NCBI RefSeq assembly: GCF_003144245.1
Contig: NW_020289983.1
Location: forward strand, 124,001-188,000
Length of the DNA: 64,000 nt
Direction: 5' to 3'
DNA from: Jaminaea rosea
Taxonomy: Eukaryota; Basidiomycota; Exobasidiomycetes; Microstromatales
Positions 34,833 through 39,076 of this stretch are shown piece by piece. The position numbers and the translations under genes are program-made. Each line of letters begins with the position of its first letter. Within the stretch, counting starts at the first letter, position 1. A model generated the notes under the pieces. That model did not search any database and was not told the origin of the DNA. It worked only from the letters and a program-made list of their open reading frames with translations.

Positions 34833-35746
34833 GTTGTTGTTGGTAATGAGCTGATTAGAAAAGGGGAAGCGATGCGATAGTGTTGGATCGATGGGAAGGA
34901 AGAGGAGTTGCTCGTGCGTTGCGTGTGCAGCCAGGGTAGAATATGTTGGGAAGAGTGCGCTGCCTCGGCGGGTTGGCCCGCGCGAAGACAGAGGCGAGAG
35001 ACGTGCCGCCGACGACGCCGCCGCCGCCGCCTGGCCGCCGCCCTGTGTGCGTGCGAGCGGGCGTCTTGTGAGACGTTGGGTGACGACGGGACGGCTGTGC
35101 GACCCAGAGGCAACCAAGGACGCTGCGCTGTGACGCTACCGCTTCAACCTCGCCTTGGCCACTTCTTCTCGTCGCTTGGCTTAGGCGGACGAAGGCGGAC
35201 GAAGGAGCAGTGGCAAGGACTAGATTCGATGGCACAACGACGATGATAGGGCTGCAACTGGCTGTGATAGACGGTTTGAGAGCAGAGATCATGCTCGACA
35301 TCTTCCAGGCAGGGGAGTCGTGTGCAAGATACCGACGGCCGGCCGGCTGGTGAGGACCAATGCACACAGGCTGCGCAACATGATCAATCCACAATGTCTT
35401 CACACTCAAACTGGTAATGGTGGTGGGGTAAGAAAGAAGATTGAATTGATTCGAGCTTGCGCGAAAGCGACAGAAGCAAGAGCCGAAGAGTGAATAAGGA
35501 GGCGATGGGAATGGTTCAGCGACTAGCACTAGGCTGAAGCTGGGTACGGTTGTTGGGTGAGGAATCCAAGCTGGAGGGGCGTGAAGAGATGCAATACTCC
35601 GCCCCTGTAAGAGAGGGAAGAGACGTGTGCACCGGACATCCTTCTAAGGGCACCTGCCCGACGCCCAAGAGAGATTCGAGGAGGGGAGCGAGCGAGACAA
35701 ACGAAGGAGCGAGACCTTGGGGTTGGTTCTTCGAACGCTGCTGCGC
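34833..35746. promoter_or_regulatory. Aldolase promoter region
   Basis: 914 bp upstream of the aldolase start and downstream of the eS10 stop, both on the minus strand. The aldolase leader next to its ATG is A-rich on the minus strand (ACCAACAACAAC directly before the ATG), typical of highly expressed fungal genes. No other gene is supported. Confidence 0.5.
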
Positions 35747-36493
35747 TTACTCGGCGCGAGGGGCACCGCGACCGACACCGGCGAAGCGGGGACGGTACTC
35801 GCCAGAGGGCTGGTCGCCCTTCTTGTCGCCAGCGTCGCGGCGACGGTACTCTCCGCGGTCACCACCCTCGGCACGGTCGCCGCGGGGGGCACGGTAGGCG
35901 CCAGGAGCACCACCGCCAACAGCGCGCTGCGGGCGAGCAGGGCGCTTGTGGGTAGCGGGGACGATCTCGGCGGGGAGGTGAAGGTACTCTCGGAGGTACT
36001 CGAGACCCTCGTTGGTGAGGGTGTAGAAGTACCACTGCCAGCTGAATTGAGTGTGGACGAATCCGCGAGAGGTCAAGCTGCGGGTGCGAGAGAAGAGGGA
36101 TCGAGGGTGTGAGCGGACTGATCTTTCGTATGCTGTCATCACGCTCGCACGCACCTCTGCATAGCCTTGACGACGTAGAGGTTGCGAATCTGGAGCTCCT
36201 GGTGGACAGACTCGAAGTTCTTCTCGGCGACGAGGACACCCTCCTTGAAGAGGGCGGCGTAGATTGCCTTGCGGTCAGCCTTGGGGATGATCACTGTGGG
36301 TGGGGAGTGAGAGAGATAGAGCAGGTCAGCTACTGAAGCTTGGAGTAGCATGGGTCACGCGTCCATCATCGGTCGAGGAGTGCTGCAGCATCATCTCTCC
36401 CTTCCTTCAGCCAGGCCTGCATTCACGCCAGCAGCTTCTCAAACTTGCACCATCCGTCCTTCCTTCCTTTGAACATCTCGCACTATACTCACT
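35747..36493 (-). CDS. RPS10: Small-subunit ribosomal protein eS10
   Basis: Component of the 40S beak near the mRNA entry. Coding exons are complement of 35747-36077 and 36155-36293 plus a single coding base at 36493, 156 aa. The start codon is split: exon 1 ends in A (CATCAAGA|GTGAGT) and exon 2 begins TG after CCACAG, across a 199-nt intron. The resulting [20 protein letters not shown] aligns residue for residue with human [20 protein letters not shown]. The second intron is 77 nt (GTGCGT donor) and restores [12 protein letters not shown]. The core [20 protein letters not shown] and EIVPATHKR are diagnostic. The C-terminal tail is Gly/Arg-rich. No ATG lies in the A-rich leader before the split codon. 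It is divergent to RPS6. Confidence 0.93.
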
Positions 36494-36877
36494 CTTGATG
36501 TGTTTGTTTTTTGTTGTTGAAGGGGGGGCCGGTGACTGGATTCCTAAGAGGAACAAGAAGGTGCGACCCGGCGTCTCGCAGCGACTTTGGTGTGGAATCG
36601 CTGAGTGGGCGGAAGAGGGATGGACAGGCCAGTCGACGGATCCGAATCCTGCGGACCGCGGCGGAGCGACTTGAAGCAAACCGTCCAAGGGCGGGCAGGC
36701 GGCAGCCAGGCTCACGGGGCGGGCGAGGACGAGAGCCTTGGAGCTGGGCGGACGAGCGGGCGGACGCGCTGGGCTTGGACGACGAGCGACGGCGAGGGCC
36801 AGCCTTCGAATGAGTCGAGAGATTCTCAATCACCTTCATCATCATCACCATCGTCCCCCTTCCCCTACGCCGACTTC
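36494..36877. promoter_or_regulatory. Shared divergent promoter of RPS10 and RPS6
   Basis: Between the inferred eS10 leader (A-rich, 36493 to about 36525) and the inferred first, noncoding exon of RPS6 that ends at 36877. It should hold both core promoters. I see no TATA box; a T-run on the + strand at 36505-36513 is the eS10 leader read in reverse. Confidence 0.5.
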
Positions 36878-37301
36878 GTAAGTGTCTACGCACAAGCGTC
36901 ACATCATCATCGTCATCATCTGTTTTGCAAGGGAGCAGACAGAATTGCGTCTACATGCGCAATGCTCCTCGCAGAGGGATAGGAAGGAGGGGAAATAAGG
37001 GAGGAAGGACTGGTGGGCAGGCGCATACACAGCGAAGCAATGTCGTCTACGCCTTGATGAAGAGAATAGAAGGACGGCCTCATTCGAGGGAGATCAGGAT
37101 GATAGAAGGGCAGGCACGAGGGAAAGGGAGATGAGAGCAGACCTCGCAGCCACTTGGCAGCCGGTGGGACACGCCAGCATAGGTTCGCTCATATGCTGGA
37201 GTTCTTCGCCCACCTCTCGATGTGTTGTGCTTCATGACCCTTTGCACAACGTTGAGCCGTATAGCTGACACGATTCACCCCCTCTCTTCCTCACCGCACA
37301 G
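36878..37301 (+). other. Probable 5'-UTR intron of RPS6
   Basis: A GTAAGT donor follows CCGACTTC at 36877. The acceptor CCGCACAG ends at 37301, only four bases before the RPS6 ATG, with a CTGAC branch-like sequence near 37265 and a CT-rich tract between. The 424-nt length would be unusual here for a coding intron but common for leader introns of ribosomal genes. Confidence 0.55.
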
Positions 37302-37305
37302 CATC

Positions 37306-38031
37306 ATGAAGCTCAACTTCGCCAACCCCGCTACGGGCGCTCAGAAGAGCTTCTCCATCGACGACGACCTCAAGACCCGCGTCTTCTGGGAGAAGCGCAT
37401 GGGTCAGGATGTCGCCATTGACCAGCTCGGTGACGAGTTCAAGGGCTACGTCGTCCGCATCGGCGGTGGTAACGACAAGCAGGGTTTCCCCATGAAGCAG
37501 GGTGTCCTCCTCCCCAACCGTGTCCGCCTCCTCCTCGGCGAGGGCCAGTCGTGCTACCGTCAGCGCCGCACTGGTGAGCGCCGCAGGAAGTCGGTTCGTG
37601 GCTGCATCGTCGGCTCGGACATCCAGGCTCTCCACCTCATCGTCGTCAAGCAGGGCGACAACGAGATCCCCGGCCTCACCGACGCCGCGTCCACCGTCGA
37701 CAAGCGCCTTGGTCCCAAGCGTGCCAACCACATCCGCAAGTTCTTCAACCTGTCCAAGAAGGACGACGTCCGTCAATTCGTCATCCGTCGTGAGGTCACC
37801 TCCAAGAAGGAGGGTGCCAAGCCTTACACCAAGGCCCCCAAGATCCAGCGTCTCATCACTGGTCAGCGTCTCCAGCGCAAGAGGCACCTGCGCTCGCTCA
37901 AGAAGAGGAAGACCGAGGCACAGAGGGAGCAGAAGGCAGAGTACGACCAGATTCTCGCCAAGCGCACCGAGGAGAAGAAGCAGCGCTCGTCGGCCGCCCG
38001 TGCCGCCCGCGCCGCCGCCCGCAAGGCTTAA
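37306..38031 (+). CDS. RPS6: Small-subunit ribosomal protein eS6
   Basis: 40S protein and classic target of TOR/S6-kinase signalling. The coding region is uninterrupted, 241 aa, starting [16 protein letters not shown]. Family blocks are [71 protein letters not shown] and [19 protein letters not shown]. Codons are strongly biased to C-ending forms, matching high expression. The C-terminus ([20 protein letters not shown]) has a single RSS pair where other fungi carry the phosphorylated Ser pair. The transcript probably has a long leader intron (36878-37301). It is divergent to RPS10. Confidence 0.96.
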
Positions 38032-39076
38032 GGAGGATTTCGAGTTAACGGGGGTCCCTAGCATCATCGCAACGTCGGCGGCTAGAGGCAAAAGGGTTGG
38101 AGCCTGGCCTTGATGTACTGTCGTCGACGAACGTGGTGGCACCGGGACTGATGCAGCGAGGGAGCACGCCTCTTTCTCTAGTCGTTGGTCCACATCCCCT
38201 CTTGTCCCTCCCCCTTGTCCTTGATTTGATCATCACCTTGTAACACTTTTCTCTCCGTCAGCTCATCACCGTGAGCTACGACCACGCACGCCATCTTCAT
38301 CATAAAACCAGGCTCAATCAGAATTGTCGACACAATGCTGCCGTGTGAATGAGCGTGCGATCTGAGATGGCCAGAGATGCAACGGCCGATAGTGAGGCAA
38401 AGCAATGAAAGTGTCTTCAAGCCACCAACTGCCAGGGCTGGCTAACGGGGCGGTCAGTCTTGCGAGGCGGGACCCTCGGGCGAATAATCTGAGCACGTAG
38501 CCCTGCCCTTAGCTCAACGAAGCCGCCAAGTCGCCACACCTAGGAGTAGGAGTATGATGATGCGTTCATGACGACGAGAGTGGACGAAGCGGGCCACTTT
38601 ACGCTTCGCCGCTACCCATTAAGCCGCGACGCTTGCGTGAATGAAGTGAATCTGGTCCGCTCACTTGCCCTCACTCGCTCAAGGTTCGGCAGACGAGGCG
38701 AGGCGGGGCCAGAGAAGTCAGGGCAGGACGCTCTTTGCGTCGAAGCAGCTGGCTTAACTTTGGACTCGCAGTCCGCGGGTTCGTTGAGGCGCCGCGCCTG
38801 CTCGTGCCTTGCTCTCTCTCCTATTCACGGACCGCCGCCCAGTCTTCCGGAAACGGTCTTTCACTAGCGCTCGCTCCTCGACGTCATGAGTAGCCGGGGG
38901 GAAAGGGCCGTACCAATCATCGGGCGTGCTTTGGAGCACTTCGTGCTTTGTGATCCATCCATTTAACCATCTCTGCTCTCCATTCATCCATCAATCAACA
39001 CTCTGCCCTGTTGAGGTCGATACCTCCTTGACTGACTACCCTCCATCGATACCACCTCCACCCCTCCGCGTTCGGC
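38032..39076. promoter_or_regulatory. Intergenic region upstream of the WS/DGAT-like gene
   Basis: 1045 bp between two + strand genes. No supported gene. The last 150 bp before the acyltransferase ATG are C/T-rich (CATCCATCCATT-like motifs near 38952-38995), as in fungal leaders. Confidence 0.4.

Follow-up and report, generated by a model that had tools for sequence, protein, structure and literature searches.

Does the eS10 ribosomal protein gene of Jaminaea rosea carry an intron inside its own start codon and, if so, does that intron act as a gate on translation? A sequence-only reading of the 64,000-nucleotide stretch analysed here (the window) had proposed both. The answer that we favor, with a probability of about 0.9, is that eS10 is here an ordinary gene with its first spliceosomal intron positioned at the start codon, so that the normal AUG would be present only in the spliced mRNA. 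What carries this answer is the sequence itself, its splice signals, the conserved N-terminus of the protein and a like pattern in other ribosomal protein genes.

The eS10 gene and its interrupted start codon

Joined across two introns (Table 1), the eS10 reading frame encodes a protein of 156 aa, which matches the Pfam S10_plectin domain (PF03501) at 138.5 bits and aligns with solved fungal eS10 chains, for example 7r81, from the first residue of each. Its top homologues are from Sympodiomycopsis kandeliae (88% identity) and Parajaminaea phylloscopi (87%), both of which belong to the Microstromatales of the Exobasidiomycetes. Judged by these closest eS10 homologues, the host most likely belongs in or near this order, within the subphylum Ustilaginomycotina; to call it a smut is a matter of usage. 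In a PF03501 search of the 16.6-Mb genome, the only matches were the two exons of this gene that carry the domain; as no other gene was matched, a duplication of eS10 was ruled out.

On the minus strand, exon 1 ends in A at 36493 with CATCAAGA (in longer form AAACACATCAAGA) and exon 2 opens with TG at 36293 as TGATCATC (in longer form TGATCATCCCCAAG). By sequence, a GT-AG intron therefore lies between the A and the TG of a conserved start codon. The A|TG split, the 199-nt intron at 36492-36294 with its GTGAGT and CCACAG ends, the eS10 identity with its conserved N-terminus and the absence of ATG from the leader had all been claimed from the letters of the DNA, and all four are borne out. For the leader, a scan to 37000 placed the nearest upstream ATG at 36839, at a distance of 346 nt from where exon 1 ends. 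Ahead of the start, the spliced frame stays open for 112 codons, none of them ATG, back to a stop at 36832.

The 3' portion of intron 1 includes a branch-like CTGAC, followed by a pyrimidine tract that extends between this element and the 3' splice site. One detail of the donor counts against the inferred splice model, namely that the last exon base is A, where G is usual. Across both strands of the window, leaving out the first 600 bases of each, there are 153 YAG|TG sites, and an A|GTRAGT donor lies 50-500 nt upstream of 7 of them. Among these 7, the eS10 site has the highest pyrimidine fraction (0.82, as compared to 0.36-0.59 for the other six) and is the only one with a CTRAY branch-like site, a criterion that is not universal in this genome, being absent from eS10 intron 2 and from the eL37 intron described below. 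A second GT is located 4 nt inside eS10 intron 1 (36487-36492, GTGA|GTATAG), whose use would likewise restore an ATG in frame, and eL37 has an equivalent site.

Table 1. Positions of eS10 and neighboring eS6 features in the window, of the split eL37 intron, and of predicted first-intron boundaries (in nt from the ATG) at ribosomal protein gene starts of the same genome.
Feature	Position	Strand	Remarks
eS10 exon 1, 3' part of leader	36493..36540	-	ends ACATCAAGA; last base is the A of the start codon
eS10 intron 1, GTGAGT...CCACAG	36294..36492	-	199 nt; splits start codon A|TG; by sequence, splicing inferred
In-frame ATG within eS10 intron 1	36349..36351	-	C at -3; open into exon 2
Branch-like site CTGAC in eS10 intron 1	36325..36329	-	32 nt between its A and the 3' splice site
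eS10 exon 2	36155..36293	-	starts with the TG of the start codon
eS10 intron 2, GTGCGT...CCGCAG	36078..36154	-	77 nt; within a Ser codon (MQ-S-LTSRG)
eS10 exon 3	35747..36077	-	through TAA stop (35749-35747)
Inferred 5' UTR intron of eS6, GTAAGT...GCACAG	36878..37301	+	ends 4 nt before ATG; pattern only
eS6 coding sequence	37306..38031	+	one open frame; divergent from eS10
eL37 split intron	G000 C7:320300-320378 (L010:1296-1374)		79 nt; by sequence
Boundary in eS10, eL37	+1 (A|TG)		by sequence
Boundary in eS17, eS27a, eS27b, eL43	+3, directly after ATG (phase 0)		by sequence
Boundary in eL34	0, directly before ATG		by sequence
Boundary in eS26, eS8	-2		eS26, either of two neighboring acceptor AGs; eS8, best candidate by pattern
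Boundary in eS6	-4		best candidate by pattern
Boundary in eL19	-5		by sequence
Boundary in eL15	-6		best candidate by pattern

Start codons in spliced and unspliced eS10 RNA

The sequence-only reading further held that without splicing the mRNA lacks a start codon for this protein, and on this point it was wrong. Intron 1 holds eight ATGs, the last of which, at 36351, shares the reading frame of exon 2 and continues into it without a stop. The unspliced RNA is therefore not devoid of a start codon: from this ATG it could encode an extended eS10, a 175-aa product with a 19-aa N-terminal extension given splicing of intron 2. It might therefore be argued that the true protein, or a second isoform, starts at this ATG by way of a downstream transcription start or of intron retention. 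A relative's predicted protein, P0003, could be taken as a precedent, since it too reads through upstream and has a Met further up. However, ATG 36351 is probably little used, because it has C at -3, seven intronic ATGs come before it, and between its extension and that of P0003 there is no match, the alignment starting exactly at VIIPK. The splice signals of intron 1 are also complete, with both a pyrimidine tract and a branch-like site, and among the 120 eS10 homologues listed of 1211 found, 99 begin with MI (84) or ML (15) at the conserved position. Taken with these observations, a protein starting at 36351 is highly improbable. A further 4 of the 120 listed homologues have MF or MY at the conserved position, and the remaining 17 have no start there; most of these 17 look like mis-called starts.

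In our preferred reading, an ordinary gene with its first intron at the start codon, splicing would join CATCAAGA to TGATCATC and thereby build an AUG in good context (A at -3), at which scanning ribosomes would begin. Because the eS10 boundary falls after the A, this normal AUG would exist only in the spliced mRNA. Unspliced eS10 RNA would be mostly unproductive because of the ATGs in its intron, a general effect of introns so placed. We infer that intron 1 is spliced as drawn and that its ATGs are little used.

P0003 also bears on whether the split is conserved. Where Met is expected it reads V-IIPK, and its alignment with the extended eS10 begins at exactly this point. Such a Val is as expected if the start codon of its own gene were split and the intron read through, which hints, from this one predicted protein, that the A|TG split is conserved. 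DNA of relatives was found neither among viral contigs, queried with P0003, nor among genome contigs, queried with the spliced eS10 protein, in one scan of each.

Several other predicted fungal eS10 proteins are irregular at this end. The N-termini of P0002, P0003, P0018, P0020 and P0057 are extended, truncated or Met-less, and an intron at or near the start codon could account for them. P0002 reads ...IKMIIPK, in agreement with the ...HIK|M of the eS10 exon 1 frame in the window. In P0016, the start falls just ahead of the intron 2 junction.

Predicted first introns at other ribosomal protein gene starts

We surveyed 13 ribosomal protein gene starts, representing 12 families, in the same genome. 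In this count the matches L001 and L002 are both eS10 and were taken as one, and L017 is the eS6 locus already present in the window, which was confirmed as eS6 and not counted separately; L005, a second S8e-family match, and L008 and L013, later matches in eS17 and eL36, were excluded. For 12 of the 13 starts, the inferred first-intron boundary is located at -6 to +3 nt of the ATG (Table 1), with the donors for eS8, eS6 and eL15 being less certain, as best candidates by pattern, and with either of two neighboring AGs possible as the eS26 acceptor. For eL36, no AG occurs in the 62 nt before the ATG.

The start codon of eL37 is likewise split A|TG, as ACAAGA|GTGAGT...TCGCAG|TGACCAAG, with the same AAGA|GTGAGT donor as in eS10, and the alignment of the encoded protein with solved eL37 begins at the first residue. 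The eS10 case is therefore not singular. The eL37 intron is without any ATG, so the argument from intronic ATGs in eS10 is not transferable to it.

These two genes bring up the question of regulation, for which the sequence-only reading had proposed that splicing directly gates translation. That statement stands only in a generic sense that applies to every first intron lying on or close to a start codon, and nothing found here indicates regulation. In a stronger version, the split start would be a selected gate, with eS10 and eL37 translated only under efficient splicing as a means of controlling ribosome supply. The occurrence of an A|TG split at 2 of the 13 sampled starts is in keeping with this idea, as is the unspliced frame of eL37, in which the stretch from the closest upstream stop to exon 2 is free of in-frame ATGs. 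Yet first introns that lie on or close to the ATG would be expected to act much alike, and one is predicted for 12 of the 13 sampled genes; moreover, eS10 itself contains the in-frame intronic ATG. A selected gate is accordingly a very improbable explanation, and the split start is not evidently a dedicated one.

A common pattern does emerge around the start codon. The predicted mature context is CAAGATG in eS10, eL37, eS27a, eL34 and eS26 and CAAAGATG in eS27b and eL43, and in these seven genes the shared context is independent of the side on which the intron lies, with boundaries at -2, 0, +1 or +3. Since the mature context stays the same while the boundary varies, the intron position looks as though it has slid around a fixed context. 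Thus, unrelated ribosomal protein genes of one genome can share a predicted mature start context and yet differ in the side on which the intron lies. A more far-reaching proposal would be that first introns in the ribosomal protein genes of this lineage slid around a fixed CAAGATG, coming to lie before, inside or after the start, and that the eS10 and eL37 splits form a conserved, splicing-licensed set that ties ribosome supply to the spliceosome; we regard this as very unlikely.

Relation to known start-codon introns

Introns of a similar kind are known from Yarrowia, which is an ascomycete. In the available portions of the report on this fungus, the 5' splice site immediately follows one of the three start-codon bases, A, T or G, in 42 introns, splicing efficiency is highest near the start codon, and genes with such introns are highest in expression (PMC13309789). 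This class includes the A| position, as in eS10, although it is from a different fungus, and the text available to us gives no breakdown among A, T and G and does not name eS10 (PMC13309789). Similarly, according to the accessible part of Nielsen and Wernersson (2006, PMC1626468), ribosomal protein genes show an enrichment of start-codon introns; introns disrupting the start codon are there termed 'relatively rare', and Yoshihama et al. are quoted on human ribosomal protein genes. The eS10 intron is alike in that it comes first in a short, conserved gene for a ribosomal protein and lies at its start codon. It differs in that the boundary in their form follows the G of the start codon, whereas in eS10 it follows the A; at +1, the eS10 boundary falls outside the definition of a phase-0 start codon intron, which lies exactly between codons 1 and 2. 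The phase-0 form that they describe does occur, by sequence, in the same genome, in eS17, eS27a, eS27b and eL43. The eS10 split is real at the sequence level and ordinary in kind, one more case of a known and fairly rare arrangement. The consulted portion of PMC7049704 contains nothing on split start codons, and phrasings for an interrupted start codon gave no match in the open-licence literature; we therefore do not assert that the eS10 case is unpublished.

The arrangement also has a practical consequence for annotation, as predictors that are unable to handle spliced start codons can miscall the N-terminus, making it too long or too short or giving Val for Met. For example, spliced start codons are named as beyond the prediction of the Tiberius gene predictor in the text available for it (PMC11645249), a limitation of software as opposed to a gene such as that described here.

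The surroundings of the gene were also inspected for other elements. A snoRNA within eS10 intron 1 was considered and rejected, as the two matches that Rfam returned for 35600-38300 were weak (E 0.54 and 1.8) and neither lay in the intron. Across the whole window, Rfam returned nothing at the gathering threshold, and no tRNA was found by ARAGORN. Finally, eS10 and eS6 are arranged head to head (35747-38031), the inferred first intron being at the start codon in the former and 4 nt before it in the latter, and the eL19 and eS27a matches are also head to head, about 1.3 kb apart.
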